The notes under the pieces: model-generated
Told to the model about the DNA's origin: nothing
Databases searched by the model: none
Seen by the model: only the letters and a program-made list of their open reading frames with translations
Part shown: positions 33,168 through 50,000 of the stretch, piece after piece
How positions within the stretch are numbered: position 1 is the stretch's first letter
How the letters are laid out: every line of letters begins with the position of its first letter
Program-made: the position numbers and the translations under genes
Source: Acholeplasmatales bacterium
Lineage (GTDB): Bacteria; Bacillota_I; Bacilli_A; Acholeplasmatales; Anaeroplasmataceae
Length of the DNA stretch: 50,165 nt
Assembly: GCA_016288855.1 (NCBI GenBank)
Contig: JAEELJ010000044.1
Location: 1-50,165, forward strand
Direction: 5' to 3'

Positions 33168-34639
33168 TATGCTTGAATTGCATCTCCTAACATTTCAAAT
33201 TCATAATTTGTAACCTTAATTAAAACTCCTCTTACAGCAAAGAATCCACAATATAAGAAATCCTTATCAATTGATGTTAAATCAAAATCAACAAAGTTTT
33301 CATTGTATTCCTTACCATCAACTACAGTTTTAATATTTACTGTTTGACCTAATCTTTCAATTTCACAATGTAATTTTATATTTTTATTTGGATAACCTAT
33401 AAATGAATCATTTGTGAATTTAATTAATGTTGATGAAGGTCTATAAAAGTTTATATGAGTAACATCAGATGCAGTACATAAGCCAGATGCAATATATGGT
33501 GTTGCAATAGTAACATCATTTTCCTTTTGGTTTATATAACATGAATCTCTTAATATTAAGCCAAATGCTTGCTGTGATGCAGGCTCAATATATAAAACAT
33601 CTATATCACCTTTCATTTTGAAATTCTTTTTAACATCAATTTTCTTGAAAACAAAAGACATTACATCCTTTGATGAATTAATTTTACCATATAATGTTTT
33701 ATTACCAATGATAAATGAATTATCCTTATCTAGGTATGCATTATAGCTTGAATCTTCCTTTAAAGGTGATATTTCACATTCACCGAATGCTGTACCATAA
33801 TATCCGTTACCACATTTTAAATGAAGTGGTGGATTATAATTATTTAAATCCGGAGCCTCATATTCTCTTAATTTAAATAATGGATTCATTTTAATTTCAG
33901 ATATATTTGGTTCCTTAATATCTTCTTTTAAATATTCTTCTAATACTGAACCTGAATCCTTAACTAATGATGCAATAATATATGCAACCTGTCTTGCGCC
34001 AAGACAAGAAAGGTGAGTTAAATCAACTGCCTTTTCATCAGGTATGATGATACCATCCATAGTTTTAACTCCATTTGTAATTGCATGATAATGCATTATC
34101 TCATTAAAAGATAGCTTCTTAACAAATTCTAATGTTTCACTTGTTAAATCCAAAACCTCTACACCTAATTCACGTCCTAAATTTATGACATATTCTTGGT
34201 AATTTCCATACAATGTATCATGTATAGCATTACCTTCATATTTATCCTTAGTTATTCTTACTATAGGTGTTGCAAGGATAGGTGTTGCACCTTTAGATCT
34301 TGCAAGCTTAATATAATATTCATTTAGATAATAACCAAATGAGCTAGAATTAGTATAAGGTAATCTCGCATCAGTAAATCTCATTGGGTCATCAAATTTT
34401 TCATCATTATGACCAAATCCAATTAATAATAAGTCTCCATCCTTAATACCATCAACAAGAGTCTTATAATTATCATCCTTTAAAAATGATTTAGATGAAC
34501 GACCAGATAATGCTAAATTAATAACCTCAAGATCAAAATATTCATTTAATTTAGTAGCATATCCATATCTTGGATAATAATAATTTGTATCATTAAATGA
34601 TGATAAGGTAGAATCTCCTACAACATATAACTTCTTCAT
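33167..34639 (-). CDS. SGNH/GDSL hydrolase, rhamnogalacturonan acetylesterase-like (CE12)
   Basis: A 490-residue protein. The N-terminal 240 residues hold the SGNH blocks: VVGDSTLSS (nucleophile Ser11), LALSGRSS, IGFGHNDEKFD, and DLTHLSCLGA with the Asp-x-x-His pair. GDST together with GHND and a DxTH pair is the CE12/rhamnogalacturonan acetylesterase pattern. Residues 260-490 form a beta-rich domain that resembles concanavalin-like or carbohydrate-associated folds (HLKCGNGYYGTAFGE, LYGKINSSKDVMSFVFKKI). There is no signal peptide, which is unusual for this family and suggests action on imported oligosaccharides or an intracellular glycan intermediate. It is coupled by TAATG overlaps to the GT2 gene before it and the unknown gene after it. 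Confidence 0.83.
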   Translation of the reverse strand: MKKLYVVGDSTLSSFNDTNYYYPRYGYATKLNEYFDLEVINLALSGRSSKSFLKDDNYKTLVDGIKDGDLLLIGFGHNDEKFDDPMRFTDARLPYTNSSSFGYYLNEYYIKLARSKGATPILATPIVRITKDKYEGNAIHDTLYGNYQEYVINLGRELGVEVLDLTSETLEFVKKLSFNEIMHYHAITNGVKTMDGIIIPDEKAVDLTHLSCLGARQVAYIIASLVKDSGSVLEEYLKEDIKEPNISEIKMNPLFKLREYEAPDLNNYNPPLHLKCGNGYYGTAFGECEISPLKEDSSYNAYLDKDNSFIIGNKTLYGKINSSKDVMSFVFKKIDVKKNFKMKGDIDVLYIEPASQQAFGLILRDSCYINQKENDVTIATPYIASGLCTASDVTHINFYRPSSTLIKFTNDSFIGYPNKNIKLHCEIERLGQTVNIKTVVDGKEYNENFVDFDLTSIDKDFLYCGFFAVRGVLIKVTNYEFEMLGDAIQA

Positions 34640-35742
34640 TAGATTTCTCCTTCATATAATTTTGATTTGTGACAAAAAATAATATTTAGTAAAGTAATAA
34701 TTACTGCAAGACAAATATCAGATAATAATTTCGCAATAGGGATATATGATTGATCATAATTAAACGCTCTAGAAAATACTTCAACAAATATAATATCTAA
34801 AACTATTATTATCATGAACCTAATAATATAATTTGCAAGTAAATCTTTTCTTTTTAAAATATATTTATTGCCATAGCATAAACCAAATCCATCTACTATT
34901 AATCCTGTAAGCATTGTAAATAATCCAGCAACAAGTGATACAAATACTAAATATATTCCATCAATGTTTAGATATGTGTAAAAGAAATATCTTAGTAATG
35001 CAAACAATACTGAATTAACAGCTAGGCATATTAATATTGGTAATACGTATTTTAATTGACAAGATGTTATTCTTAAGAAATCTCTTACAGGACGGAAATG
35101 TGTTCCTTTATTCTCATTTATATAAATCGTTTTAATTGCAATTTCTCTAATTGGAATTGAAGCACGAATAACCTCTGATAGCATATTCATTTCATATTCA
35201 TATCTATTACCTTTAATTGATAGCATGAAATTAATTAAATTTGATGAAAATGCACGAAGTCCTGTTTGTGTATCATAAATTCTTTCACTAAATATAAATC
35301 TAGTAATGTTTCTTGATACATCATTTCCGAATCTACTTTTCTTAGGGACATCACCTTCAAATTTTCTACTTCCAAGAATAAACATGCCTGGGTTCTTCAT
35401 ATAAAAATCATATACTCTTTTTATATCCTTTGGATGATGCTGTCCATCTGAATCAGCAGTTACAATTACATATTCTTTATTTAAAGTATAGATATATTTA
35501 AATGCTTCCTTTAAAGCATGTCCTTTCCCCTTGTTTTCTTCATATGAAATAAGATGAGTATTTTCTAGTGTTTTAACAACATTAAATACTTCCTTTGATT
35601 CTTCTTTAACTGAACCATCATTTACAACAACGATTAAAAAATTTGAAAATTCATAATTCAAATCATTAATTAAGCCTATTAATTTATCGTCTGGCTCATA
35701 TGCAGGTATTACAACCGCAAGCCCTAATTTTTTCTCATCCAT
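34639..35742 (-). CDS. GT2 glycosyltransferase fused to a GtrA membrane domain
   Basis: A 367-residue protein. Residues 8-225 are a family 2 transferase of the dolichol-phosphate-mannose synthase type: AVVIPAYEPDDKL, VVNDGS, NKGKGHALKEAF, TADSDGQHHP (the DxD) and DTQTGLRAF. Residues 230-365 contain four hydrophobic segments typical of GtrA (VLPILICLAVNSVLFALLRYF, then GLFTMLTGLIVDGFGLCYGNKYILKR). It likely transfers a sugar from a nucleotide donor to a polyprenyl phosphate and helps flip or present it for surface glycan synthesis. It is the first gene of a coupled three-gene operon with a good promoter 44 bases upstream. Confidence 0.9.
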   Translation of the reverse strand: MDEKKLGLAVVIPAYEPDDKLIGLINDLNYEFSNFLIVVVNDGSVKEESKEVFNVVKTLENTHLISYEENKGKGHALKEAFKYIYTLNKEYVIVTADSDGQHHPKDIKRVYDFYMKNPGMFILGSRKFEGDVPKKSRFGNDVSRNITRFIFSERIYDTQTGLRAFSSNLINFMLSIKGNRYEYEMNMLSEVIRASIPIREIAIKTIYINENKGTHFRPVRDFLRITSCQLKYVLPILICLAVNSVLFALLRYFFYTYLNIDGIYLVFVSLVAGLFTMLTGLIVDGFGLCYGNKYILKRKDLLANYIIRFMIIIVLDIIFVEVFSRAFNYDQSYIPIAKLLSDICLAVIITLLNIIFCHKSKLYEGEI

Positions 35743-35762
35743 ATATAAACACCTTTAGAGTA

Positions 35763-35858: not shown

Positions 35859-36827
35859 ATGAAAGAGTTATACATAATTTTAATAATAATTGGTGTTGTT
35901 GTTCTACTTTCAGCTTTAATTGCGCCTGCAATTATAATACCTTATAAGGTATCTAAGAAGGTATACTTAAAACAATTCGTTAGAATAAATAAAGAAAAGT
36001 GGGCAAGAGAATGTAGTGATACTACTAATGAAGAACAAGTTATAATGTTTGACTATAGCTTAAAATTTGCTTCAGAAAATAAAGATAAGCATCAAAAGCT
36101 TCATATGGTAAATGATAATCTAAATTTATATGCTGACTATTATGACTTTGGTTTTAAAAGAGCAGTTGTATTATGTGCAGGTAGAGCTGAATGTAGCCTT
36201 TATGCATTATATTACACAAACCCTTATATTAAGGCTGGCTATAATATATTATCAATTGAAACTAGAGCCCATGGAGATAGCGAAGGTAAAATTAACCACC
36301 TTGGCTTAAAGGAATATAAGGATGTATTAAAGTGGATCAAAATATTACATGATGAATATAACATGGACGAAATTGTATTACATGGTATTTGTATTGGTTC
36401 AGCAACATTAGTTTATGCAATAACTGATGAAGAATGTCCTTCATACGTTAAATCTTTAACAACTGATGGACTATATAAGGATTTCAAATCTACATTAGTA
36501 AAACATATTAAAGACACAGGACATAACGCATTCCCTTGTGCAAACTTCATCTTACATAAGGTATCAAAGGATGCAGGATTAAATATTAATAAATTTACTC
36601 CATATAATCTTGCTGATAAAATTAAAATTCCAGTTTTAATGCTTCATTCTAAAATGGATAAATTCTCCATCCCAGAAAAAGCGCAGCTTACTTTTGATAA
36701 AATGACTTCTTCTCCTAATAAAAAGCTAGTATGGTTTGATAAGGGAGCACATTCTCATATAAGAATTAACAATCAAGAAAAATATGATGAAGAAATAATA
36801 GATTTCTTAAGAGGCATAAATGGATAA
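35859..36827 (+). CDS. Membrane-anchored alpha/beta hydrolase with a cysteine nucleophile
   Basis: A 322-residue protein. One N-terminal helix (LYIILIIIGVVVLLSALIAPAIII) probably anchors it, with the hydrolase domain outside. RAHGDSEG (136-143) and the nucleophile elbow are as in the YqkD/BAAT-like serine hydrolases, except that GxSxG reads GICIG with Cys178. The other triad members are Asp267 (HSKMDKFSIP) and His298 (KGAHSHI). The codon is TGT, so it is not a simple translation error. Cysteine nucleophiles occur in dienelactone hydrolases and some thioester or lactone enzymes. AAGGAG precedes the ATG. The next gene, a deacetylase, overlaps by 8 bases, so the two enzymes probably act on the same material. 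Confidence 0.85.
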   Translation: MKELYIILIIIGVVVLLSALIAPAIIIPYKVSKKVYLKQFVRINKEKWARECSDTTNEEQVIMFDYSLKFASENKDKHQKLHMVNDNLNLYADYYDFGFKRAVVLCAGRAECSLYALYYTNPYIKAGYNILSIETRAHGDSEGKINHLGLKEYKDVLKWIKILHDEYNMDEIVLHGICIGSATLVYAITDEECPSYVKSLTTDGLYKDFKSTLVKHIKDTGHNAFPCANFILHKVSKDAGLNINKFTPYNLADKIKIPVLMLHSKMDKFSIPEKAQLTFDKMTSSPNKKLVWFDKGAHSHIRINNQEKYDEEIIDFLRGING

Positions 36828-37680
36828 GTATGCATTCTTTTCTATGGATGTAGAATCATTATATGATTCATTAATTTTATATAATAAGGGTAATCCTTAT
36901 AATTCAAAGTATTCCTATGAAGAATTATTAAAATACTATATAGAATTATTGGATAAATATAATATTAAAGCAACATTCTTTGTTACTGTTACAAGCTTAC
37001 CAATATGTAAAGATATATTAGAAAAAGCTTTACAAAACGGACATGAAATAGGACTACATGGCCTAAACCATAGATCTCCTATGGATATGACTAATGACGA
37101 ATTTAGAGAATCAATAAGACAAGGTAAAAAAATTTTAGAAAATGTATTTAATACTAAGGTCATAGGATATAGAGCTCCTATGTTTGGAATTAATGATGAA
37201 AGAATAGAAATATTAAAGGAGGAAGGATTTATATATGATTCTTCTGACCTATCCTTCCATCTAGCATTAAAAAGTGGTGGCATATCATTAGATAGCTATA
37301 CTAAAGATGCTACATTAATACACCATTATGATTACTTCTATGAATTTTCACTTGCAAAGGTTAAGGCATATAGAGGCCACATGCCAATAAGTGGTGGTGG
37401 ATATATTAGACTTGTTCCTTGGTTCGTAATGAAATATTATCTACTTAAATTTTTTAGAAAAACTGACTCTTACCTATTCTATTGTCATCCATTTGAGTTA
37501 TGTCATAGCATCTTACCTAAACTTAAAAACATAAACAAAAGAGAATGGCTTTATATACATGCCGGTAGATTTAATTATTTAAGAAAAATTAAAAGAATTA
37601 TTCAATTTTTAAAAAGAAAAAAATTTAAAATAATAACTTTTAGTGAATATATAAAAGCCAAAAAAATGCAGGAAAATTAA
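36820..37680 (+). CDS. Polysaccharide deacetylase (NodB/CE4-like)
   Basis: A 286-residue protein with FSMDVES (catalytic Asp near 9), ATFFVTVTSLPICKDILEKA, HEIGLHGLNHRSP (the metal-binding His-x3-His), YRAPMFG, and DSSDLSFH. This is the NodB homology domain that removes N-acetyl groups from peptidoglycan, chitin-like or other amino-sugar glycans. No signal peptide is visible, so it acts either in the cytoplasm, possibly on lipid-linked sugars, or by another export route. The order and the MDVE start are like the PuuE/PgdA-type proteins found in glycan clusters. Its start codon lies inside the preceding hydrolase gene. A bidirectional terminator overlaps its stop codon. Confidence 0.87.
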   Translation: MDKYAFFSMDVESLYDSLILYNKGNPYNSKYSYEELLKYYIELLDKYNIKATFFVTVTSLPICKDILEKALQNGHEIGLHGLNHRSPMDMTNDEFRESIRQGKKILENVFNTKVIGYRAPMFGINDERIEILKEEGFIYDSSDLSFHLALKSGGISLDSYTKDATLIHHYDYFYEFSLAKVKAYRGHMPISGGGYIRLVPWFVMKYYLLKFFRKTDSYLFYCHPFELCHSILPKLKNINKREWLYIHAGRFNYLRKIKRIIQFLKRKKFKIITFSEYIKAKKMQEN

Positions 37681-37694: not shown

Positions 37695-38663
37695 TTATCT
37701 ATCTTCTCTAAAGTAATTAATACCTAAAGCAAGTGGTGGTTGAATATTCTTCTTTCCTACAATTGATGTACCAATTAAAACTATAATTGTTACTAAATAA
37801 GGAAGCATATTTAACGCATCTGTTGTAACTGTATCTATTACAAGTGCTTGAGGTAATTGATATAAGAATGAGAATATCAATGAACCTAATATTGCAATAT
37901 TTGGCTTCCATACAGAGAAAATAACTAATGCAACAGCTAACCAACCAATGTTTTCAATTGAAGCTGCTTGGTCAAACTGTCCATTACCAATATTCATAAT
38001 GTATGATAGACCACCTAATGCACATATAGCACAACCAATCATTGTACCTGCATATTTGTATTTAGCTACATCAATACCTTGAGCATCTGCAGTTGCTGGG
38101 CTTTCACCAACAGCTCTTAATGCTAAACCAACCTTAGTTTTCTTCATAACAATTGATGCTAAAACTGCAATAACAACTGCTAAAATAACTAAGATACCAT
38201 GTGAGAAAAATATTCTTACAGCGTCTGGTGTATTAGCCTCAGGGATAAAATGATTTAAGATTGTAGTGAAATATGAAGATACTTGTGGAATACAAGTTCT
38301 ATCAAACATATTAATTACCATATCAGCTAAAGCAACACCAAATGTTGTTAAAGCTAAACCAGTAATATTTTGGTTTGCACGTCTTGTGACAGTTAAGAAG
38401 CTGTATAATAAACCTAATGCTGCACCAAATAATAATGCGAATACTATACCAAATAAAACAACAAGTATTGCGTTTGCGTTATTTGGGCCACCAACCCATG
38501 AACAATAAATTGAAATACCTAATCCGCCACCTACAGCACCAAAGCACATAACACCTGGTGTACCTAAGTTTAAGTGACCACTCTTTTCAGTAATAATTTC
38601 ACCAGCGGCACCAAATAAGAATACTGAGAATAATTTAATTGATAAGATAATATAAGCTACCAT
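37695..38663 (-). CDS. nupQ: Nucleoside ABC transporter permease (NupQ-type)
   Basis: A 322-residue membrane protein of the COG1079 type: FLFGAAGEIITEKSGHLNLGTPGVMCFGAVGG at the start, GLALTTFGVALADMVIN, and GLALRAVGESPATADAQGIDVAKYKY in the cytoplasmic coupling loop. It pairs with the longer NupP permease to import nucleosides by the BMP-lipoprotein system. Its ATG shares one base with the nupP stop (TAATG). It is the last gene of the operon and ends at a bidirectional terminator. Confidence 0.92.
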   Translation of the reverse strand: MVAYIILSIKLFSVFLFGAAGEIITEKSGHLNLGTPGVMCFGAVGGGLGISIYCSWVGGPNNANAILVVLFGIVFALLFGAALGLLYSFLTVTRRANQNITGLALTTFGVALADMVINMFDRTCIPQVSSYFTTILNHFIPEANTPDAVRIFFSHGILVILAVVIAVLASIVMKKTKVGLALRAVGESPATADAQGIDVAKYKYAGTMIGCAICALGGLSYIMNIGNGQFDQAASIENIGWLAVALVIFSVWKPNIAILGSLIFSFLYQLPQALVIDTVTTDALNMLPYLVTIIVLIGTSIVGKKNIQPPLALGINYFREDR

Positions 38664-40096
38664 TATTCTTGGACCTCCTTATCTAAAGAAGATTCTTCAT
38701 TTTGAACTTCATTATCATCTTTTATATCGTCAAGATTTATATTAGAGAATGAATTTACTTCATCATTTGTACCAATTTCAGAAACACTAGATGTTTCATT
38801 GATATCAAGTGAAGCTTCTTGACTCTTAGGTAATTCTTCTATTACATCCTTTGTATCCTTCTTAACTCTATTTTTGAATGTAACATTGAAGAAATCACCA
38901 ATCTTTTTATTTAACTTTTCAATCCATGTAGCAGGATAGTAAGTAATAACATGCATTAACCAAGCAAACTTATTATCAATCTTTCCTTCTTCATTTCTTC
39001 TTGCAACAATCTTATATGTAGCAAAGAAGCTAATACCAATAATAAAGAAGAAGAAAACTGCAATTACAGCACTAGGTGCTGATGCACTTGTAAGATTTAA
39101 TGCGTTTGTACCTCTCTTTAAGAATACAACTAAGAATGTAGTTAATAATGTGTAGAACGGATTGAAATTAGCTAACCAAACTACAATAATTGCAGTAAAT
39201 CCAAGTCCACCTAATGTATTTGCTGTTAGAGTATGTGAACCTGTAGTATTTAATATTAAGAAACCAACAAATCCACAAATACCACCAGATATAGCCATTG
39301 TTCTAATTAGTGAAAGCTTAACATTAATACCTACATATTTTGCTGTATTAACTGATTCACCAATAATACTAATTTCGAAACCATGCTTTGTTTTAATTAA
39401 ATAAAGTGAAACAATTAGGAATAATATAAGAATTGATAATATCGCAACTAAATTTAACTTACCTACACCAACCTTTAATGGTTCAAGAATACCACCAGTA
39501 AGTGCAAATAAATTATAATTATTTGTTGCACCAATTGTATGACAAGCAATCAATACAAATTGAATTGCAACATAGTTCATCATCAATGTAAATAATGTTT
39601 CATTTGTATTAAAGAATGCTTTAAATATTGCTGGAATAACTCCAAATATTACACCTGCAACAATTGCACCTAATATACATAATACTACTATTAAAGGATT
39701 TGGAACCTTACCTTGAAAATTATATGCTATAACATATGATACTAATGCCCCAATTAAAGCTTGTCCATCAGCACCTGTATTCCAGAACTTCATCTTAAAT
39801 GCAGGTATCAATGCTATCGCAAGTCCTAAAAGGATTGCAAAATCTGTTAAAGTATTAAACACTTTCGCACTATTACCAAAATTTCCTGTAAACATTGCAA
39901 ATAAGAATTTACCAACACTAACATTATTTGTTATAGCCAAGAATATAGCTGAAACGATAAATGCTAATAATATTGCAGCAACTCTGACTAAAATTGACAT
40001 CCAAGTTGGAGTATGACCTCTTTTAATTACATGGAATAGAGGTTCCTTCTTCTGCTTTTTAGTTTTTGCTTTAGGAGTTTTTAATGTATTTTCCAT
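38663..40096 (-). CDS. nupP: Nucleoside ABC transporter permease (NupP-type)
   Basis: A 477-residue COG4603-type permease: about eight membrane helices between 35 and 370, with NVSVGKFLFAMFTGNFG, PAFKMKFWNTGADGQALIGAL, NETLFTLMMNYVAIQ and GGLGFTAIIVVWLANFNP. The last 100 residues are a soluble, acidic extension (SQEASLDINETSSVSEIGTN and more) that is longer than in the B. subtilis protein and is not conserved in the family as far as I can recall. Coupled by TAATG overlaps to the ATPase gene before it and nupQ after it. Confidence 0.92.
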   Translation of the reverse strand: MENTLKTPKAKTKKQKKEPLFHVIKRGHTPTWMSILVRVAAILLAFIVSAIFLAITNNVSVGKFLFAMFTGNFGNSAKVFNTLTDFAILLGLAIALIPAFKMKFWNTGADGQALIGALVSYVIAYNFQGKVPNPLIVVLCILGAIVAGVIFGVIPAIFKAFFNTNETLFTLMMNYVAIQFVLIACHTIGATNNYNLFALTGGILEPLKVGVGKLNLVAILSILILFLIVSLYLIKTKHGFEISIIGESVNTAKYVGINVKLSLIRTMAISGGICGFVGFLILNTTGSHTLTANTLGGLGFTAIIVVWLANFNPFYTLLTTFLVVFLKRGTNALNLTSASAPSAVIAVFFFFIIGISFFATYKIVARRNEEGKIDNKFAWLMHVITYYPATWIEKLNKKIGDFFNVTFKNRVKKDTKDVIEELPKSQEASLDINETSSVSEIGTNDEVNSFSNINLDDIKDDNEVQNEESSLDKEVQE

Positions 40097-41733
40097 TATT
40101 TTACCTCCTCTTTATTTTCATCTTGTTGTTCTAAAGATTCTTCTGCATTTTCTTCCTTATCAAGGTTTTCCCATTCCTCTTCAGTTAATGAAGAGTCCTT
40201 AGCTTTACCCCAAGGTCTATGAGCTTGTTCCTTAAGAAGGTTAAGAGAACCTGTCATCATTAATCCTAACTTTTCCTTAGTAGTTTTTGCAGCATGTACA
40301 ACACCCATTACTTCACCATGGCATAATACTAGAATTTTATCACATAATGCAAGCATAACGTCTAGGTCTTCACCTACAAACATTATACCTACACCCTTTT
40401 TCTTTTGATCATTTAAAATATCATAAATTGCATAAGCTGAGTTGATATCAAGACCTCTTACAGGGTATGCTGTTACAACAACATTAGGATTTGAATCAAT
40501 TTCTCTACCTACTAATACCTTTTGAACATTACCACCTGATAATAATCTAACAGGTGTTTCAGAAGATGGAGTTACGATATTTAATCTTTCAATTAATGAA
40601 TTAGCTTCAATTCTACCAGCTCTTCTATTGAAGAATATACCTCTACCATTTCTATATAACTTTAACATCATGTTATCAGTTATAGAGAATGATGGACATA
40701 ATCCCATACCTAATCTATCTTCTGGGATGAAAGACATTGATATACCTTCTTCAATGATTTCAGCAGGCTTCATTTTAATAATGTCTTTTTCTTTATGAAT
40801 AATATGTCCTGACTCAACAGTTCTTAAGCCAGCTATTGCTTCACAAAGTTCCTTTTGACCACATCCTGCAATACCAGCAATACCTAATATTTCACCACCA
40901 CGAATATAGAATGAAACATTATTTATTGCAGTACTTCCGTCGTCCTTTTTAATTGTTAAATCTCTTATTTCAAGTAATGGAACATTTACTTCAGATTGTA
41001 CTCTATCAATTTTTAATTCAATCTTTTCACCAACCATCATTTCAGTTAATTGGGTTTCATTAGTCTCATTAGTATTTACTGTACCAATATATTGACCCTT
41101 TCTTAGGATTGAAACTCTATCTGATAATTCCATAACCTCATTTAGTTTATGAGTAATAATGATAATTGACTTACCATCTTCTCTCATAGACTTTAAGACA
41201 TTGAACAATTTAGTTATTTCCTGAGGAGTTAAAACCGCAGTTGGCTCATCTAGAATTAGAATATTTGCACCACGATATAAAACCTTTATGATTTCTACTG
41301 TCTGTTTTTCAGAAACTGACATATCATAAATCTTTTTCTTAGGATCTATTTCAAATCCGTATTTTTCTGCAATTTCAGCAACAATCTTGTTAGCCTTCTT
41401 TAAAGAAATTCTATCATTTGTGCCTAAAACTACATTCTCAGCTGCTGTAAATACATCAACAAGTTTAAAATGTTGGTGAATCATACCAATACCATAATTA
41501 AACGCATCCTTTGGTGATGCAATTGTTGCAACTTCGCCATCTACTAATATTTCTCCTGAATCCTGGTGATAAATACCAGAAATCATATTCATAAGAGTAG
41601 TCTTACCACTTCCGTTTTCACCTAAAAGAGATAAGATTTCTCCTTTTTTAACGTTAAGAGAAACATTATTATTAGCGATAACGGATCCAAATGTCTTTGT
41701 TATGTTTTTTAGTTCTAATGCATAAAGAGACAT
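40096..41733 (-). CDS. nupO: Nucleoside ABC transporter twin ATPase (NupO-type)
   Basis: A 545-residue protein with two ABC domains, COG3845 type. The first has Walker A GENGSGKTT near 40, signature MSVSEKQ and Walker B ILILDEPTAVLTP. The second has the family's degenerate P-loop (GIAGCGQKE), FIPEDRLGMGL, signature LLSGGNVQK and VTAYPVRGLD, in which the usual PTRGLD is PVRGLD. The C-terminus is acidic (EEEWENLDKEENAEESLEQQDE). It energises uptake with NupP and NupQ. The ATG at 41733 is chosen because GAGG lies at the right distance; an upstream GTG would add four residues. A hairpin before the gene may reduce its expression relative to the lipoprotein. Confidence 0.92.
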   Translation of the reverse strand: MSLYALELKNITKTFGSVIANNNVSLNVKKGEILSLLGENGSGKTTLMNMISGIYHQDSGEILVDGEVATIASPKDAFNYGIGMIHQHFKLVDVFTAAENVVLGTNDRISLKKANKIVAEIAEKYGFEIDPKKKIYDMSVSEKQTVEIIKVLYRGANILILDEPTAVLTPQEITKLFNVLKSMREDGKSIIIITHKLNEVMELSDRVSILRKGQYIGTVNTNETNETQLTEMMVGEKIELKIDRVQSEVNVPLLEIRDLTIKKDDGSTAINNVSFYIRGGEILGIAGIAGCGQKELCEAIAGLRTVESGHIIHKEKDIIKMKPAEIIEEGISMSFIPEDRLGMGLCPSFSITDNMMLKLYRNGRGIFFNRRAGRIEANSLIERLNIVTPSSETPVRLLSGGNVQKVLVGREIDSNPNVVVTAYPVRGLDINSAYAIYDILNDQKKKGVGIMFVGEDLDVMLALCDKILVLCHGEVMGVVHAAKTTKEKLGLMMTGSLNLLKEQAHRPWGKAKDSSLTEEEWENLDKEENAEESLEQQDENKEEVK

Positions 41734-41762
41734 AGCGTACCTCACTTTTTTAAAATTACAAA

Positions 41763-41786
41763 TAAGGCGGATTTAACTCCGCCTTA
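41763..41786 (-). terminator. Attenuating hairpin between the BMP lipoprotein gene and nupO
   Basis: TAAGGCGGA, six bases, TCCGCCTTA: a strong 9-base-pair stem followed on the minus strand only by TTTGTAATTTT. The poor T-run suggests partial termination, or protection of the lipoprotein mRNA, giving more binding protein than permease. Confidence 0.65.
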
Positions 41787-41821
41787 TAATTATTATACTA
41801 CATAACGATTTAAAAACAATC

Positions 41822-42994
41822 TTAAGCTAATTCAGTAATACCATCAATTCTGATATCGAAATAAGGAGCACTTCTATAGAAAGATTCCTTGAATACGCCA
41901 TCAACGATAACGTTAGTTTCAGGTTCACCATCTTTTAAGCCAGCAACAGTATAAGATGTTAAATGTTCTCCACCAACTGTGAAATTAGCAGTATCGAATA
42001 CATTAATTGTACCATTCTTTAAGCCTTCAACTGCTGCATCAATTTCAGTTTGTGTTCCTTCTGCTGCAAGATTAGTGTTTAATTCCATTAATTCAACTGA
42101 ACCAGTTGCAATAGTACCAACATAGTCATAATCCATTTCCTTATTTTCAGTTACAGTCTTAACCATATCAGTGAAGAAAGGTCTCCAGTTGATTCTTGAT
42201 GCAACTAAATATGTATTAGGTGCAGATGCACTATTGTTACCATTGTAGAATACGTTTGGAACGCCCTTAGATTCACAAACACCAGGAGCTCCCTGAGAGT
42301 CAGCATGTTGTGAAATTAACTTACAGCCATCAGTTTCAATTAACTGAGTTGCAGCTGCAGCTTCCTTTTCAACTGAGAACCAAGAGTTAGTATATCTAAC
42401 CTTCATAGTTACAGAGTCACAAACAGACTTAGCTCCTAAATAGAATGAAGTATAACCAGATACTACTTCAGCATAGTTATATGCACCAACATATCCCATT
42501 ACTGCTTCATCAGCTTGAATATCACCATTTTTAATCATTTCGTTCATCTTTAAACCAGCAACGATACCAGCTAAATAACGACCTTCATAGATTGATGCGA
42601 ATGCATTGTGGTAGTTAGATAACTTTTCAGTGTGAGCCTTAGTACCAGTTGCATGGAAGAATTGAATTGAATCATATTCCTTTGCAGCCTTAACCATACC
42701 ACTTTCATGACCAAAAGAGTCAGCGAAGATTGCCTTGCATCCGTCTGCAGCTAATTCAACTGCAACATCATATTCAGCACCTTCTTCAACTTGAGTCTTG
42801 AATACTGCTTCAACACCCATTTCTTCACAAACATCCTTTGCAGCTTCAATGAAGTTCTTATCATAAGTTGAAGTTTCATCATGTAAGCAAATAAAACCAA
42901 CCTTTACAGAATCAGAGTTTCCACAAGATGTAACTGCAAGCATACCAAATCCGCATGCTACTGCAGCTAAGCCAGTTAAAATTTTCTTTTTCAT
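41822..42994 (-). CDS. nupN: BMP-family nucleoside-binding lipoprotein (NupN/PnrA-like)
   Basis: A 390-residue lipoprotein. The signal peptide MKKKILTGLAAVACGFGMLAVTSC ends in a VTSC lipobox (Cys24). The mature part starts SVKVGFICLHDETSTYDKNFIEAA and contains CKAIFADSFGHESGMVKAA, FASIYEGRYLAGIVAG, MGYVGAYNYAEVVSGYTSFYLG and LISQHADSQGAPGVCES, all conserved in BMP/PnrA proteins that bind purine nucleosides. It is the first gene of the transporter operon and is separated from nupO by a hairpin. The leader of roughly 80-90 bases contains an inverted repeat but no recognisable purine riboswitch. Confidence 0.93.
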   Translation of the reverse strand: MKKKILTGLAAVACGFGMLAVTSCGNSDSVKVGFICLHDETSTYDKNFIEAAKDVCEEMGVEAVFKTQVEEGAEYDVAVELAADGCKAIFADSFGHESGMVKAAKEYDSIQFFHATGTKAHTEKLSNYHNAFASIYEGRYLAGIVAGLKMNEMIKNGDIQADEAVMGYVGAYNYAEVVSGYTSFYLGAKSVCDSVTMKVRYTNSWFSVEKEAAAATQLIETDGCKLISQHADSQGAPGVCESKGVPNVFYNGNNSASAPNTYLVASRINWRPFFTDMVKTVTENKEMDYDYVGTIATGSVELMELNTNLAAEGTQTEIDAAVEGLKNGTINVFDTANFTVGGEHLTSYTVAGLKDGEPETNVIVDGVFKESFYRSAPYFDIRIDGITELA

Positions 42995-43075: not shown

Positions 43076-43130
43076 AATATTATTATATTATAATTTTTCC
43101 ACTTTTTAAACAAATAAATTTACATTTTAA

Positions 43131-43163
43131 AAGGGAGAATGTCCAAAATTATCATTCTCCCTT
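43131..43163 (-). terminator. Terminator of the fatty-acid cassette operon
   Basis: AAGGGAGAATG, 11 bases, CATTCTCCCTT: an 11-base-pair stem followed by TTTTAAAA on the minus strand. It lies 11 bases past the LRAT gene's stop and is the first terminator seen downstream of the fakA promoter about 5.8 kb away. Confidence 0.85.
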
Positions 43164-43173
43164 AGTAAGTCTT

Positions 43174-43563
43174 CTATTTCTTTTTATAAAGCTCAGCTTC
43201 ACTAGAATAATGACGGTTAAAAACCACTTCATAGCAAAAGTGTTCACAGTTATTTTCTACTATATTATAACCACCTTCACCAATTCTTCCCTTTGCTAAA
43301 GAAACTATCTTTTCTGGCTTATTCTTCTTTAGCTTTTCAAAAATAGAAAATGAAGAAACCTCAAGATATCCATTATCTAAGAATTCCTTAACACTAACCT
43401 CTTTTACTCTAATATTCTCTTTTGATGTTTGAAAAATATCCCTCTTAGAGCCAAATTCAATAACTCTATCATCACCAATATATATACCATAGTGATGATA
43501 TTTATCCTTAATTAAAACCCTAACGATATCTCCTTTTTTTGCTTCCTTATTTAGAAACTCCAT
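43174..43563 (-). CDS. LRAT/NlpC-P60-like domain protein
   Basis: A 129-residue protein made almost wholly of one LRAT fold. KKGDIVRVLIKDKYHHYGIYIGDDRVIEFG gives the catalytic His in HYGIY, and NCEHFCYEVVF gives the NCEHF motif with the nucleophile Cys, the standard order of the permuted NlpC/P60 family that includes lecithin-retinol acyltransferase and HRAS-like phospholipases/acyltransferases. These enzymes take an acyl chain from a phospholipid through a thioester and pass it to an acceptor or water. The C-terminus lacks a membrane helix. The ATG at 43563 is chosen because TAGGTGAT precedes it; it overlaps the tandem PlsC gene by 17 bases. The operon context supports a lipid role rather than cell-wall hydrolysis. 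Confidence 0.85.
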   Translation of the reverse strand: MEFLNKEAKKGDIVRVLIKDKYHHYGIYIGDDRVIEFGSKRDIFQTSKENIRVKEVSVKEFLDNGYLEVSSFSIFEKLKKNKPEKIVSLAKGRIGEGGYNIVENNCEHFCYEVVFNRHYSSEAELYKKK

Positions 43564-44803
43564 CAATATCACCTAGCTTATATAATTCATCATGAATATT
43601 ATCCATCATGATTTTCAAATCTTTAGATTTAATTCTTTTACCATTAGAATCAATAGTATCATATTTTTTACCTAAATAGATAACATTCTTTTTACCACAA
43701 ACTCTATTAAGTACAGTATATATTGGCATACCTGCACGTGATGCAATATATGCAGCACCAGTCTTAAATTGACTATTGTTTTCTTTATCAATATGACCTG
43801 ATGCAAAAACAACCAATAAATTACCTGCCTTAACAATATCAACTGCCAGCTCCATCGCAGAAACATCATAAATATTTCTATCTACTCTAACACAACCAAG
43901 TTGCCTTAAAAAGAAGCTTCTTACCTTATGGCCATCAAAAACAACCTCTGCAGTTAATATATAAACTCTTCTATTAGGGAATATCTTATACATCATTAAA
44001 GGATCTTTAAATGATTGGTGGTTCATTACAACAACTCCACCACCTTTAACACTCCTTAACTTTTTATTTCCCTTAAATTTTAATTTAAAGAATAAAGAAA
44101 TAAACTTTGCAATTGCTCTTCCTAAATCCTTTAATAAATATTTTAATCTAGGGCCATGACCATATTTATCTAATACCATTTTTTCATGACATATTTTTTC
44201 TAAAGAAGCCATTTTATCAGTAACTATCTTATTTAATTCTAATAATTCTTCTTTTGTTGGATTCTTACTTGTACAATAATCACTTAAATTTATCTTCTTT
44301 CCTATTACAATATGACATCTTTTCTTAAATCCATAATCACCATTCATATAAATTGGAGTAATAGGAGTATTGCTTCTTAAGGCAATAAGTAGATATGTTG
44401 GGTGAAAATACAATAGCTTCTTCTTTTCAACCTCAACTCTACCCTCAGGATATACAATAAGCATTTTTTTCTTTTCTAATAGATCACAAGAAGTATTAAT
44501 AAAAGAGAAATCATAATTTCTTCTATCAACCTTAATACCACCCATAATCTTAGTTGATGTTGATACAAACCATCCATGTGAGAATACAAGCTCACTCATT
44601 AAACAGAAAATTCTTCTAAAATGAAATAAAAATATTGTAACCATATAATCCATTAATGATGTATGGTTTGAAACAATAAATGTCTTACCTCTAGTCCATC
44701 TATTAGATTCCTTCTTGTCCTCATAATAAACTCTTTTCTTAAAGAAAATGAATTGGCATGGCCAAGCCATTATATAGCCTAATACATACAATATAAACAT
44801 CAT
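43547..44803 (-). CDS. Tandem PlsC-type acyltransferase (two fused domains)
   Basis: A 418-residue protein with two lysophosphatidate acyltransferase domains. The first (about 1-200) has a membrane helix, SNHTSLMDY (the His-x4-Asp catalytic motif), GGIKVDRRN and YPEGRVE, the complete PlsC set. The second (about 240-405) has MNHQSFKDP (His-x4-Asp), LGCVRVDRN and VFASGHIDKEN, where the usual F/YPEG motif lacks the glutamate. The second site may have changed acceptor binding or be inactive. PlsC enzymes move an acyl group from acyl-ACP or acyl-CoA to the glycerol 2-position. Its ATG overlaps the ligase stop (ATGA), with GAGGAGAC as the ribosome site. The acyl donor may be the carrier domain encoded just upstream. 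Confidence 0.9.
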   Translation of the reverse strand: MMFILYVLGYIMAWPCQFIFFKKRVYYEDKKESNRWTRGKTFIVSNHTSLMDYMVTIFLFHFRRIFCLMSELVFSHGWFVSTSTKIMGGIKVDRRNYDFSFINTSCDLLEKKKMLIVYPEGRVEVEKKKLLYFHPTYLLIALRSNTPITPIYMNGDYGFKKRCHIVIGKKINLSDYCTSKNPTKEELLELNKIVTDKMASLEKICHEKMVLDKYGHGPRLKYLLKDLGRAIAKFISLFFKLKFKGNKKLRSVKGGGVVVMNHQSFKDPLMMYKIFPNRRVYILTAEVVFDGHKVRSFFLRQLGCVRVDRNIYDVSAMELAVDIVKAGNLLVVFASGHIDKENNSQFKTGAAYIASRAGMPIYTVLNRVCGKKNVIYLGKKYDTIDSNGKRIKSKDLKIMMDNIHDELYKLGDIDGVSK

Positions 44804-46716
44804 TTTCTTAAAGTCTCCTCAATTACCTTAGTAATATCATAAGGTGTATGCATTGAATCATTTTCAAATGGAATAGAAATCATAAATTCTTCATTAATAT
44901 CAGAAATTAATGAAAAATATTCTAATGATGATCCATTTAAGTCAAAGAAGAAATCAGAATTATCCTTAATATTATCCTTTTCTATAGATAATAAATTAGA
45001 AATAATATCTTTAACCTTATCTAATATTTCCCTGCTTACTTCTTGTCCTTCTTCTTTAGTTTTAATTATTTCATTATATAAATATAATTTAACTTCGTTT
45101 GAATTAAGCTTTCGTCTTAAATATTCTCTTGAAACCTTAATTGCGGTTTCTGCCATTATTGGATCATAAGTAAAATAAATATCCTTTATTCTTATTGAAG
45201 CATTTAACTTATTATTTATATCCTTAATTCTTTCATATATATCATTGATGATATTATTAGGTAAATATGAATCAATAGATACAATAATAGAAAGCTTATT
45301 ATCAATAAGCATTATAGATATAGCCTTAGCCTTATCTATTACAAATTCCTTTTCAATAACATCTGGATTAATATTTTCACCATTATCTAGGATTATTAAA
45401 TCATCTAATCTACCATCAATATAATATCTATTATCACTATCAGTATGGCAAATATCCTTAGTATTGAACCATTCTTGATTCTCTTCTAATACACCATTAA
45501 CCATAATCTTATGAGAAATAGATTCTCCTCTAACATATAAAATATTATCTACTATTTTATATTCAATAGATTTAAATGGCTTACCAATAGAATTCTTTAA
45601 TCTATCATAAGAATCACCAAGCTCAACTGAAGTAATACCTATTTCAGTCATACCATATCCATTGTATAGTGGATATCCTAATGAATTAAATAATTTTAGG
45701 GTATCATTATGGATATATGCACCACCTGAAATCATAAACTGAACAGATTCACCAAATAATTTAGATGTAACCTTCTTCATTATCTTTTTAGATTTCTTAA
45801 CACCCCATACTGGGAATAGATGTTGTAACTTAAGGCAAATATTTTGTCCCTTATGGAATTTATTAATAGTTTTTTCATCCATCTTCTTAAGCTCATTTAA
45901 TAGGCCCTTTTCTACCATCTTCCAGAATAGAGGGACAGCAAAAATATGTGTAACCTCATGTCTTCTAATTGTATAAAGAATAGTATCTGATGAATAATCA
46001 TTTAAGAATACCATAGTTCTTCCAAAAAATGAGAACCATAAGAATGTCGCAACAAGACCAAATATATGATAAAGTGGTAAGAAAACAAGTTGCTTTAACT
46101 GTCCCTTATAATGCATTTTAATTTGCTTATTGTTCTTTAAAATGTCAGTACAATTTAATATTTGATTAGCTAATTCCTCACCACTAAAGAACACGATCTT
46201 TTCATTCATAGATGTTGCTGATGTAGATAATGCTAATTCATTTTCAGGATTAAATTTATAGTCTTCTTCTACCTTATCATTTAAGCTTTTAATATCTATA
46301 AATTCATACCCTTCATATATCTTTTTATTACCAATGATATATTTAATATTTAATGTATTTAGTAAGCCATTTACTAATTTATATGGATGTCTTAAATTTA
46401 CTAAATAAGGCTTATTTCCACTCATTATTATTGCGAATAATGCTACTGCAAAATCAAGTGAGTTTTCCATCGCAATTGCAATATATTCACCCTTTAAAGT
46501 ACTATATCTATTATTAATAGAATATGCTACATCTAATATCTTGTTATATACCTCACCAAATGTATGCTTATAAATTTTATAGCCATCGTTATCCTCAGAA
46601 AATATCCAATCACTATTCATAAACATTACATTAATGATATCTATCATTTTTTTATTTGAATTTTCTAATGCACTAACTCTATCATTAACTATTTTATTAA
46701 CATTTAGTCTTGGCAT
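44800..46716 (-). CDS. Acyl-AMP ligase fused to an acyl carrier domain
   Basis: A 638-residue protein. Residues of about 15-500 form an ANL-superfamily adenylating domain: an altered P-loop (STSATSMNEKIVFFSG, in place of TSGTTGxPK), LPLYHIFGLVATFLWF, YNGYGMTEIG (A5), WFNTKDIC (A7), GRLDDLIILDNGENINPDVIE (A8) and AETAIKVSREYLR, with the A10-type lysine. Residues 560-638 are a phosphopantetheine carrier: KDIISNLLSI, then FFFDLNGSSLEYFSLISDIN with the DxxGSS serine near 603. It should activate a carboxylic, probably fatty, acid with ATP and load it on its own carrier. The phosphopantetheinyl transferase gene immediately upstream (13-base overlap) would make the carrier active, and the acyltransferase follows. 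Confidence 0.88.
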   Translation of the reverse strand: MPRLNVNKIVNDRVSALENSNKKMIDIINVMFMNSDWIFSEDNDGYKIYKHTFGEVYNKILDVAYSINNRYSTLKGEYIAIAMENSLDFAVALFAIIMSGNKPYLVNLRHPYKLVNGLLNTLNIKYIIGNKKIYEGYEFIDIKSLNDKVEEDYKFNPENELALSTSATSMNEKIVFFSGEELANQILNCTDILKNNKQIKMHYKGQLKQLVFLPLYHIFGLVATFLWFSFFGRTMVFLNDYSSDTILYTIRRHEVTHIFAVPLFWKMVEKGLLNELKKMDEKTINKFHKGQNICLKLQHLFPVWGVKKSKKIMKKVTSKLFGESVQFMISGGAYIHNDTLKLFNSLGYPLYNGYGMTEIGITSVELGDSYDRLKNSIGKPFKSIEYKIVDNILYVRGESISHKIMVNGVLEENQEWFNTKDICHTDSDNRYYIDGRLDDLIILDNGENINPDVIEKEFVIDKAKAISIMLIDNKLSIIVSIDSYLPNNIINDIYERIKDINNKLNASIRIKDIYFTYDPIMAETAIKVSREYLRRKLNSNEVKLYLYNEIIKTKEEGQEVSREILDKVKDIISNLLSIEKDNIKDNSDFFFDLNGSSLEYFSLISDINEEFMISIPFENDSMHTPYDITKVIEETLRK

Positions 46717-47285
46717 ATTAAATCTCCTTTAGTCATAATAAATCTTAATTGTAAAAGACAGTTTTTCTTATAAACTGTAATATAAGATTTATCCTTTTTA
46801 ACCCAGTAAAAATCATCAATATTCTTCTTTTCTTCTAATGATTCCTTTGTAATACCTGTACCTAAGTATTTTGAATATGCTTCTTCAAATGTCCATTTTA
46901 ATACTGCGTCCATATCATTATCATATTTTATATTACTTAAATACTTTTCTAGGTTATTATACTTTTTTCCTTCTAATTCTTCTTCAATATCAATACCATG
47001 GTTATTTAATGAAAAGCTAAAGCCATAATATAATTTAGAATCAGATGTTGATATATATAAACCATCTATATGTGGTTTACCATTAACTATCATAAATGAG
47101 GAAGTATCAACCCCAAATTTTTTTATTTCTTTTAATAATCTATTATATTTAGTAAGCTTTATATTTCTTTTATTGATATCCTTATATCTAGATATTTTAT
47201 CAAATAAAAATGATGGTATATCATATTCTAAATCTATATCACTAGTGCTAAATATATAAACATATATAATATCTTTTTCTAACAT
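46704..47285 (-). CDS. Sfp-like 4'-phosphopantetheinyl transferase (diverged)
   Basis: A 193-residue protein with the Sfp-type order: NRLLKEIKKFGVD, then NGKPHIDG (the GKP motif), ISTSDSKLYYGFSFSLNNHGIDIEEE (the SHS-like strand and the GxDxE magnesium site) and LKWTFEEAYSKYLGTGI (the WxxKEA motif, here WTFEEA). Such enzymes transfer phosphopantetheine from CoA to the serine of carrier domains. The length is short for Sfp and the SHS and KEA motifs are altered, which fits narrow specificity for one partner. That partner is very probably the carrier domain of the ligase gene that overlaps its 3' end. Its ATG overlaps the fakA stop by 7 bases. Confidence 0.8.
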   Translation of the reverse strand: MLEKDIIYVYIFSTSDIDLEYDIPSFLFDKISRYKDINKRNIKLTKYNRLLKEIKKFGVDTSSFMIVNGKPHIDGLYISTSDSKLYYGFSFSLNNHGIDIEEELEGKKYNNLEKYLSNIKYDNDMDAVLKWTFEEAYSKYLGTGITKESLEEKKNIDDFYWVKKDKSYITVYKKNCLLQLRFIMTKGDLICQD

Positions 47286-48919
47286 ACGCCTATCATTAAA
47301 ATGTATTTTTCGTCCTTTGAATCTAAAACAATACCATCTATACCATATTCATCACTAATATCATCTAAGATATCATATGGATCAATTTCTAAATCTTTAC
47401 CTGTGAATAATGATACTGCAGATATATCATCACTTACCTTTGATATTGAATTTAATGCAACATAAGATAAATCATTTGAAGAAAGAATTATATTACCTTT
47501 ATTAATTGCAATAAAATCACCCTTTTTAATTTCAATACCATTCATAAATGAATCCTTAGATGCGATAGCAATTAGAATTGCTTCTTCTGACTTTGCGCCT
47601 TCATTTAATAAATCTAGTGCTTTTTCTGCTTCTAGGGTATCATAATCCTCAAGCATCAATGATTCTAATGCGAAATAGCCTTCAACCATATTAGCTGTAT
47701 CAATTATTTCTACATTTTTATTTGTTAATGATTTTGCTTGCTCTATCGCAAGTACTACATTCTTATCATTAGGTAAGACGAAATATTTATCTGCGTTAAC
47801 TGAATTAAAAGCATTTATAAAATCATTTGTTGATGTTTCACTCATTTTTAATGTTTTATCTGCATGAATATTCTTTAGGATTTCATCCTCTTCATTTGAT
47901 TCAACAGTTGATATTATTGCGAATTTCTTATTAGGCTTAATAGTCATTGTTTCATTATGCTGAATATTCATGTTCTCACTCTTTAAGGTAATGAATTCTC
48001 CATACTTTTGGGCTTCATTGAATATTACACCTGGAGTTTTAGTATGAACATGAACCTTAACTATTAAATCATCTTGTATTGCGACAATAGAATCTCCATT
48101 TTGATGTAGGAAGGAAATAAAATCATCTAAAATGAATGTTTTATTCTTTAGCTTAGGCTGTAGCTGCATAACAAATTCAGTACAATATCCATATGTAAGA
48201 ATAGTATTTTCATTAAATAAATCTTTTACATTTAAATTTTGTTCTTTAAAATTATTTGATTTAGCAAGTGACTTTTTAGAAACAAGACCAGTGCTTCTTA
48301 AAACTTCCTCATCATCTAAGAATTTCTTAATACCTTCATAAATAAATATTAAGCCTGCTCCACCTGAATCAACAACACCAGCTTCCTTTAATACATGTAG
48401 TAGGTTTGGTGTATTATCTAGTGCAATTTTCATTTGGAATAATAATTTCATAATTAATGAATTAATAGATGTATTATCATCAATATCATTAATTATCATT
48501 CTTACTCCTTCTCTTGCGACAGTAAGAATTGTACCCTCAGCTGGATTAACTACTGCCTTATATGCAGTTTTATATCCCATCTCTATTGCTTCTGCATATG
48601 TTTTTGCTGAAGCCTCACTATAATCCTTTAAATATAAAGCCTGACCCTTAAATAGCTGAGATAATATTACACCTGAATTACCTCTAGCATTTAATAGCAT
48701 CCCTTTTGATAATGATTGCATAAATTCACCCAAGTTTTCTGAATCATTTGATGAATTTAAGCCACCTTCAATTGTATTAAGCATATTTGTACCTGTATCA
48801 CCATCTGGAACAGGGAATACATTAAGCTCATTTACCTCTGATTCGTGTTGACTTAAATAATTAGCACCTGATATTAGCATTTTCTTAAAAATTTTACCAT
48901 TTATCTTTGAAATATTCAT
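47279..48919 (-). CDS. fakA: DAK2-domain protein, fatty acid kinase FakA-like
   Basis: A 546-residue protein. Residues 1-205 are a DhaL/DAK2 kinase domain: NELNVFPVPDGDTGTNML (metal and ATP contact), LLNARGNSGVILSQLFKG, and NLLHVLKEAGVVDSGGAGLIFIYEG. A middle region and a C-terminal DegV-like/FakA extension (about 220-546, with HVHTKTPGVIFNEAQKYGE) follow. FakA phosphorylates fatty acids bound to a FakB/DegV partner, producing acyl-phosphate for the PlsX/PlsY route. A DegV protein is encoded divergently 148 bases away, which supports this reading over the older YloV annotation. It is the first gene of the lipid operon; AGGAGAG precedes the ATG. In many Firmicutes the homologue follows an Asp23 gene, which is not the case here. 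Confidence 0.9.
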   Translation of the reverse strand: MNISKINGKIFKKMLISGANYLSQHESEVNELNVFPVPDGDTGTNMLNTIEGGLNSSNDSENLGEFMQSLSKGMLLNARGNSGVILSQLFKGQALYLKDYSEASAKTYAEAIEMGYKTAYKAVVNPAEGTILTVAREGVRMIINDIDDNTSINSLIMKLLFQMKIALDNTPNLLHVLKEAGVVDSGGAGLIFIYEGIKKFLDDEEVLRSTGLVSKKSLAKSNNFKEQNLNVKDLFNENTILTYGYCTEFVMQLQPKLKNKTFILDDFISFLHQNGDSIVAIQDDLIVKVHVHTKTPGVIFNEAQKYGEFITLKSENMNIQHNETMTIKPNKKFAIISTVESNEEDEILKNIHADKTLKMSETSTNDFINAFNSVNADKYFVLPNDKNVVLAIEQAKSLTNKNVEIIDTANMVEGYFALESLMLEDYDTLEAEKALDLLNEGAKSEEAILIAIASKDSFMNGIEIKKGDFIAINKGNIILSSNDLSYVALNSISKVSDDISAVSLFTGKDLEIDPYDILDDISDEYGIDGIVLDSKDEKYILMIGVC

Positions 48920-48945
48920 AATATCTCTCCTAAAAATCAGTTTGA

Positions 48946-48974
48946 ATTATACCAAAAATTCAATTTTTTGTAAA
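48946..48974 (-). promoter_or_regulatory. Promoter of the fakA-led lipid operon
   Basis: TTTACA (48974-48969), 17 bases, TATAAT (48951-48946) on the minus strand, 27 bases from the start codon. The small palindrome GACT-TG-AGTC at 49004-49013 lies between it and the divergent degV gene, a possible shared regulator site. It does not match the FapR or FabT boxes as I know them. Confidence 0.8.
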
Positions 48975-49067
48975 CAAAAAGGGATGGTTTATGTTTTCGT
49001 ATGGACTTGAGTCGAAAAAAATGGTAAAATGCTTATGTATTATTTTTTAAATAAAGGAGATAATTTT

Positions 49068-50000
49068 ATGAATGAATTTGCTATATTTGCAGATGCTACA
49101 TGTGATCTTTCAGATGATTTAAGAGCTAAATACAATATTAATTGTGTTAAGGGACATGTAACATTTCCAGATGGTTCTCAAAAAGATGGTATTTGTAGCT
49201 GGGATGGTTATGATAAGGATGCTTTCTATAAGGATTTAAGAAAGAATCCAAATGGTTATTCTACTTCACCTGCTTCACCTGAAGAATTCAAGGAAGCATT
49301 TGAACCAACATTAAAGGAAGGCAAAGATATTCTTGCAATTTGCATTTCTACTGCATTATCTGGTACATATAATTTTATGAACCAAGCTAAAGCTGAATTA
49401 GAAAAAAAATATCCAGATAGAAAGATTTTAGTTGTTGACTCTCTACGTTTCACAACAGGATTCGGTCTAATTTGTGTACAAGCTTCTATCTTAAGAAGCG
49501 AAGGTAAATCAATTGATGAAGTATATGGCTGGGTTGAAGCTAATAAGTATAATTATCATCAATGTGGTTACTTAGATGATTTATCTTTCGTTGCCGCAAA
49601 GGGTAGAATTTCTAAGGCTAAGGCTTTTATGGGTCAATTAGTTGGAATTAAGCCATTTGGCGAATTCGATAAAAATGGTCTTACTACTGTTTTAGGACAG
49701 GTTAAGGGTGATAAGGCTGCAATTAAGGGCTTCATTGAATATATGAAGGCAACAATTGAAAATCCTGAGGATCAAATTGTTTTCGTTGCAACAACAAATA
49801 GAATGAAGCAAGCTTTAGTTTATAAGGAAGCTATTGAAAGAGAAATTCATCCAAAGGAAGTAATTATAAACGAAGTATATATTCAAGATGCTGTCAATGT
49901 AGGTCCTGGTCTAATGTGCTCTTATTATTATGGTAAGAGAATTACTGATGACTTAACTTACGAAAAGAATTTAGTTCAAGAAATTATTAAGAAGTTATAA
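49068..50000 (+). CDS. DegV-family fatty-acid-binding protein (FakB-like)
   Basis: A 310-residue protein. FADATCDLSDDLRAKYNINCV begins the DegV fold; YSTSPASPEEFKEAF and ICISTALSGTYNFMNQA supply the conserved Thr/Ser residues that hold the fatty acid carboxylate, and VDSLRFTTGFG is the next conserved loop. KGRISKAKAFMGQLVGIKP is the usual family end of domain 1. FakB proteins present a bound fatty acid to FakA for phosphorylation. The ATG at 49068 is chosen because AAAGGAG lies at the right distance; an upstream ATG at 49029 has none. It is divergent from the fakA operon, and two hairpins follow. Chain-length preference cannot be read from the sequence. Confidence 0.92.
   Translation: MNEFAIFADATCDLSDDLRAKYNINCVKGHVTFPDGSQKDGICSWDGYDKDAFYKDLRKNPNGYSTSPASPEEFKEAFEPTLKEGKDILAICISTALSGTYNFMNQAKAELEKKYPDRKILVVDSLRFTTGFGLICVQASILRSEGKSIDEVYGWVEANKYNYHQCGYLDDLSFVAAKGRISKAKAFMGQLVGIKPFGEFDKNGLTTVLGQVKGDKAAIKGFIEYMKATIENPEDQIVFVATTNRMKQALVYKEAIEREIHPKEVIINEVYIQDAVNVGPGLMCSYYYGKRITDDLTYEKNLVQEIIKKL

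Follow-up and report, generated by a model that had tools for sequence, protein, structure and literature searches.

The analysed stretch of DNA (referred to here as the window) comprises 50,165 nucleotides of contig JAEELJ010000044.1, and the genome from which it derives belongs to a gut Anaeroplasma. Towards its distal end, five co-directional genes on the minus strand were found to overlap head to tail, by 7 bases (FakA/PPTase), 13 bases (PPTase/ligase), 4 bases (ligase/PlsC) and 17 bases (PlsC/LRAT), the last value assuming that the LRAT gene starts at the ATG at 43563. A DegV/FakB gene is located on the opposite strand and is divergent from this five-gene operon. A sequence-only reading of the locus had described these six genes, their overlaps and the divergent fakB/degV gene, all of which were confirmed in place by the ORF list, the sequence itself and family scans. 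The family scans agreed with all six assignments, that of the PPTase being the weakest by sequence. The single promoter and single terminator of the same reading likewise found counterparts in a promoter-like site before FakA and a terminator-like hairpin after LRAT. The features of the cassette are as follows.

49068..50000, plus strand: DegV-family acyl-binding subunit, FakB-like (PF02645, E 3e-53; TIGR00762 above cut-off)
48946..48974, minus strand: promoter-like site of the five-gene operon (11/12 consensus matches, extended -10; consensus only)
47279..48919, minus strand: FakA2, the second fatty acid kinase of FakA type (Dak2 domain with FakA-like middle and C-terminal domains)
46704..47285, minus strand: divergent Sfp-type 4'-phosphopantetheinyl transferase, PPTase (invariant metal/catalytic residues and Sfp fold match)
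44800..46716, minus strand: AMP-forming acyl ligase with a fused acyl carrier domain at its C-terminus (PF00501, E 1.5e-32; PF00550, E 1.4e-5)
43547..44803, minus strand: tandem PlsC acyltransferase with two HX4D domains (PF01553; motifs; predicted-structure fold matches)
43174..43563, minus strand: LRAT/PLAAT-like thiol transacylase (PF04970, E 3.4e-21)
43129..43163, minus strand: intrinsic-terminator-like hairpin after LRAT (11-bp stem and T tail, read from the sequence)

The promoter-like site 5' of FakA reads TTTACA-17-TATAAT with a TG (48974-48946), while the hairpin has an 11-base loop, which exceeds the limit of the terminator scan, and was hence read directly from the letters. The FakB-like gene is likely to start at 49068 rather than at 49029, since AGGAGA lies just 5' of the former position. 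Its product scored 83.7 bits against the FakB1 equivalog (NCBIfam), for which the cut-off is 350, although the DegV domain itself was recovered. Similarly, FakA2 exceeded the cut-off of TIGR03599 and displays the Dak2-middle-C architecture, but fell below that of the FakA_VfrB equivalog; a canonical FakA1 is encoded elsewhere in the genome (G000:C6).

Catalytic residues and predicted structures

The PPTase matched its Pfam family weakly (PF01648, E of about 0.033-0.034, below the cut-off). Residues G97, D99, E101, W131, E135 and K139 are invariant in 20/20 PPTase sequences, and this G-D-E / W-E-K pattern corresponds to the metal-binding and catalytic residues of the Sfp family. Both the D-x-E...W-x3-E-x3-K residues and an Sfp-type fold are present, the structure being predicted with a pLDDT of 88.9 and its best solved match being Sfp with CoA and carrier (E 1.1e-7). 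The identity of the PPTase was therefore retained, despite its weak Pfam score, on the basis of the invariant residues, the predicted structure and the match to Sfp. It represents the sole PF01648 match in the genome, an 88-contig assembly in which a second enzyme could be missed, and so may serve several carriers.

Comparison of 77 ligase homologues revealed that the A5 Glu, A7 Asp, A8 Arg and A10 Lys (E358, D421, R436 and K527) are invariant in 77/77, as is the phosphopantetheine serine of the carrier domain (S597), in support of the dedicated carrier that had been proposed for the locus. The canonical A3 P-loop, SGTTGxPK, is replaced by STSATSMNEK in the ligase of the window; A3 usually reads STSATS instead of SGTTG among the homologues, with Ala replacing the P-loop Gly in 48/77. 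Thus, the adenylation residues are retained, whereas the nucleotide loop differs. The closest curated models of the ligase are MenE-like and below cut-off, which leaves room for an unusual acid as substrate; we infer that the substrate is a fatty acid.

Both PlsC domains retain the HX4D motif (NHTSLMD and NHQSFKD), and the predicted structure consists of two acyltransferase domains, for which PlsC was the best match, followed by LpxM, GPAT and PatA. In Clostridia, the tandem protein is represented by two adjacent genes, with the N-type preceding the C-type in 37/38 split pairs, and the fused and split states interchange at least seven times on the ligase tree. This repeated fusion and fission provides good evidence that the two domains act jointly. 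A separate 596-aa protein of the same genome (L184, G000:C71, 141-1931) carries a C-terminal PlsC domain behind an N-terminal region that by eye is glycosyltransferase-8-like.

The nearest solved sequences to the LRAT protein are those of human PLAAT4 and PLAAT3. The first His and the catalytic Cys of NCEHF (NNCEHF) are conserved, while the position of the second His of the PLAAT triad is occupied by Q, E or A (E in the LRAT of the window). A second LRAT protein, located outside the cassette (G000:C70:55900-56226), occurs in most of the genus, whether the cassette is present or not.

Conservation and gene neighbourhoods in relatives

The ligase was identified in 11/27 genomes of the genus and in 16/150 of an order-level sample. 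Five further genomes of the genus were shown to carry all six genes together (L029, L030, L031, L033 and L035). The relatives with the whole cassette include the cultured type strain Anaeroplasma bactoclasticum ATCC 27112 (L127). Incomplete versions lack LRAT (L034) or the PPTase (L036 and L037), while others end at contig edges; in the sister family (L077), a PlsX gene occupies the place of the PPTase.

Beyond the genus, a scan of genome contigs yielded 239 relatives; 80 of these were retained, the majority being Clostridia and Bacilli of the rumen and gut. Neighbourhoods were counted at the 50 loci flanked by 5 kb or more in each direction, which represent 34 ligase clusters at 60% identity; this sample is skewed to the best matches, yet covers many families, and most of the evidence on such islands derives from metagenome assemblies. 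The gene families found near the ligase were PlsC (47 of the 50 loci, with two PlsC domains in 40), alpha/beta-hydrolase (ABH; 39), FakA (36), FakB (32), free carrier (27), LRAT (24), PlsX (22), GT2 (22), MFS_2 (20), PPTase (13), PldB-like hydrolase (12), a second ligase (11) and deacetylase (6). For PlsC and the PlsC pair, ABH, FakA, FakB, free carrier, LRAT, PlsX and MFS_2, the linkage persisted after collapse to the 34 clusters. Some relatives display the gene order ligase, MFS_2, PlsC, PlsC, which resembles lplT-aas, and some encode a PldB-like lysophospholipase. MFS_2 returned no sequence match among solved structures, so a role for it in lipid transport stays putative.

The prediction that the genes would stay together in related genomes was thus borne out, both within Anaeroplasma and by the clustering of the same families in gut Clostridia and Bacilli, and the neighbours of ligase and PPTase proved to be lipid genes rather than NRPS or PKS clusters. 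An NRPS/PKS affiliation of the cassette was ruled out by the ligase neighbourhoods. Unlinked to the cassette, the same genome holds a set of NRPS-like appearance (L025, G000:C44, 6395-9523), consisting of an AMP ligase (514 aa), a carrier (72 aa) and a condensation-like protein (455 aa). As the gene set occurs with rearrangements in many gut Firmicutes, it looks like a real, if so far only predicted, lipid-building or lipid-salvage system. The possibility that unrelated genes are neighbours by chance is negligible, given the gene overlaps and the conserved linkage across 34 ligase clusters, which refutes it.

Two variants of the ligase neighbourhood were also observed. In related islands at L115, L119, L120, L131 and L139, a free carrier comes after an additional AMP ligase (500-520 aa) of canonical appearance, an arrangement that suggests two parallel acyl inputs. 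In another Bacilli family with small genomes (f9; L169-L179), ligase-carrier homologues of ~660-690 aa have no adjoining PlsC, LRAT or FakA and lie in a different, conserved neighbourhood.

Extent of the island

The island appears to be larger than the six genes, which stand as described; the co-occurrence of a second PlsX, as well as three genes in the same window, had been missed by the sequence-only reading. A second PlsX was found in 11/16 ligase-bearing genomes versus 6/134 ligase-less genomes (p=3e-9) and, within the genus, in 9/11 genomes with the ligase versus 1/16 without (p=1e-4). In A. bactoclasticum, it adjoins another FakB-FakA pair (L027). Second-lineage, island and housekeeping PlsX form three separate groups in a tree that has no root and so does not establish the unlinked PlsX2 as sister to the island-type PlsX. 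The three additional genes of the window are as follows.

36820..37680, plus strand: polysaccharide deacetylase (PDA), XrtA/NodB-like, probably in the distal part of the island (PF01522 and PF11959; linked in relatives)
35859..36827, plus strand: alpha/beta-hydrolase (ABH), its family having a membrane segment at the N-terminus; probable distal part (PF12146, E 2.3e-10)
34639..35742, minus strand: GT2 glycosyltransferase, DPM1/PpgS/AglJ-like, probable distal part (PF00535, E 3.8e-14; PpgS/AglJ below cut-off)

Between these genes (34639-37680) and LRAT lies a Bmp/ABC nucleoside-type transporter operon (37695-42994). In other members of the genus (L073, L074, L080 and L127), GT2, alpha/beta-hydrolase and deacetylase genes adjoin the cassette, and those of the window probably belong to the island as its distal part. 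Beside GT2, the window encodes a GDSL-family esterase (33167-34639); L073 and L080 have a GDSL-like gene of similar size (471-483 aa) after GT2. MFS_2 is rare in islands with GT2 and PlsX (1/22 versus 19/28, p=5e-6; p=0.002 after dereplication), indicative of two sub-types of island, with the window representing the GT2 type.

Fatty-acid and lipid synthesis elsewhere in the genome

The cassette had been expected to accompany missing fab genes, an expectation that failed. The same genome encodes a FASII operon (L061, G000:C82, 820-11404) with fabD, accABCD, fabZ, fabG, two carriers and a tandem ketosynthase, together with a FakA1-RecG-PlsX1-Rnc locus (L024), PlsY, other PlsC-family proteins and a free AcpP. 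Among its 88 contigs, only FabH and an ordinary FabF were not found. The tandem ketosynthase is a single 795-aa protein with two ketosynthase domains and occurs in most of the genus. An explanation of the cassette by absence of FASII is therefore ruled out; with the FASII operon, PlsX1, PlsY and another PlsC retained, the cassette adds to normal lipid synthesis rather than replacing it. The literature searched with regard to plasmalogen synthesis yielded no primary lipid data for Anaeroplasma.

Comparison with known systems

In E. coli, Aas forms acyl-ACP before acylating lysolipid (PMC11416262). Identified LplT-Aas systems are all from Gram-negatives, although lysolipid uptake and acylation have been reported in Gram-positives (PMC11416262, 2024); in the streptococcal GPC pathway, the transporters and acyltransferases were unidentified as of 2019 (PMC6805115). 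By analogy, the island seems to work like LplT-Aas, its closest counterpart, but is built differently. Both have an AMP-forming ligase to charge a carrier and a PlsC-type acyltransferase for the acylation of lipid (PMC11416262), these activities being predicted for the island; the HX4D motif is present in both of its PlsC domains, and an MFS gene lies between ligase and PlsC in some of its relatives. Unlike in LplT-Aas, the ligase of the island is fused to its own carrier, PlsC is encoded by a separate gene rather than within a single polypeptide and has two domains, and FakA/FakB, PPTase and LRAT are added. Furthermore, the cassette of the window has no linked MFS flippase, MFS_2 being present in 20/50 relatives only, and the hosts of the island are Gram-positive or wall-less gut bacteria. 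As both the fusion partner and the linked flippase differ, the island was placed outside the LplT-Aas family.

With the FakAB/PlsX/PlsY exogenous fatty-acid pathway of Firmicutes, the island shares FakA, DegV/FakB homologues and a second-lineage PlsX; its copies are, however, second ones beside an intact housekeeping set and are accompanied by a ligase-carrier and tandem PlsC. The AasR-AcpR pair of rhodobacterial sphingolipids, which directs free fatty acids into a single class of lipid, likewise combines a private carrier with its own ligase (PMC9386255), although in the island the carrier is fused to the ligase and the partner is PlsC instead of serine palmitoyltransferase. Enterococcus AcpB is also an extra carrier, in its case for exogenous fatty acids (PMC6509188), in a system without ligase, tandem PlsC or LRAT. 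Finally, the LRAT protein resembles PLAAT/LRAT acyltransferases in the cysteine of NCEHF, the first His and its nearest solved sequences, and differs from PLAAT at the second-His position (Q/E/A) and in being bacterial and operon-encoded.

Proposed function

We give about even chances to the island being dedicated machinery that activates and transfers acyl chains for glycerolipids, most likely drawing on scavenged acyl chains as well as lyso- or deacylated lipids to build or rebuild lipids. The individual reactions are predicted from the family assignments, in line with what is established for FakAB, ANL ligases, Sfp-type PPTases, PlsC and PLAAT enzymes. In a self-contained route, the PPTase would equip the carrier domain of the ligase itself with a phosphopantetheine arm, onto which the ligase would load a free acyl chain that it has adenylated. 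The two PlsC domains are then proposed to draw the chain from the fused carrier and to acylate first one and then the second position of an acceptor, here taken to be a glycerolipid. FakA/FakB could convert the same free acid to acyl-phosphate, usable by PlsY or PlsX, so that FakAB, with PlsX2, would provide acyl-phosphate or acyl-carrier in parallel. LRAT may shift chains between lipids via a cysteine thioester, and the hydrolases may furnish free acids and lysolipids.

This salvage reading is favoured by the conservation of the six genes, the partners at the 50 loci, the pairing of PlsC domains, the invariant ligase residues, the PLAAT-like LRAT, the lplT-aas-like gene order and the PldB-like lysophospholipase. 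Several observations count against it. There is no lipid transporter in the window, and MFS_2 is missing from most GT2-type islands; simple salvage needs neither GT2 nor deacetylase; most ligases have an altered P-loop, and the closest curated models of the window's ligase are MenE-like; and synteny gives no substrate.

The main rival to the salvage reading is the production of an acylated glycolipid or surface lipid of a special kind, for which GT2 would make a polyprenyl-phosphate amino sugar, the deacetylase would free the amine, and the ligase-carrier and PlsC pair would acylate either a sugar or glycerol by chemistry of the PatA or Nod-factor type. GT2 is present at 22/50 loci, and GT2, ABH and PDA occur jointly in five loci as well as in the window; the predicted PlsC structure also matches PatA and LpxM, and in Rhodobacteria, pairs of ligase and dedicated carrier serve a special lipid, sphingolipid (PMC9386255). 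Most ligase clusters nevertheless lack GT2 and PDA (present in 10/34 and 4/34, respectively), both genes lie past the nucleoside-transporter operon in the window, and FakA, FakB and LRAT would be unexpected in such a role, so we consider this alternative rather unlikely, if a serious one.

A redundant scavenging operon that feeds ordinary phospholipid synthesis by FakAB-PlsX-PlsY-PlsC logic, given dietary fatty acids, appears improbable. The co-occurrence of FakA2, FakB and second-lineage PlsX with the ligase is consistent with it, as is the requirement for the auxiliary carrier AcpB in efficient fatty-acid incorporation by E. faecalis (PMC6509188). Such an operon would, however, duplicate the FakA1, PlsX1, PlsY, other PlsC proteins and FASII that the genome already has, and would leave the fused carrier, the two PlsC domains and LRAT unexplained.

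Within the salvage reading, a more specific proposal can tentatively be put forward as one possibility: the island may represent the missing system for salvage and reacylation of lysolipids and deacylated lipids in gut Gram-positives and their wall-less relatives, with a self-loading ligase-carrier, a PlsC pair able to acylate a scavenged glycerolipid headgroup at both of its positions, and FakAB, PlsX2, LRAT and lipases as feeders. The island offers a small group of candidate genes that can be put to the test and that occur in one cultured type strain as well as in many bacteria of the rumen and gut; if the reading is true, it would be a defined example of a ligase that bears its own acyl carrier for lipid assembly.
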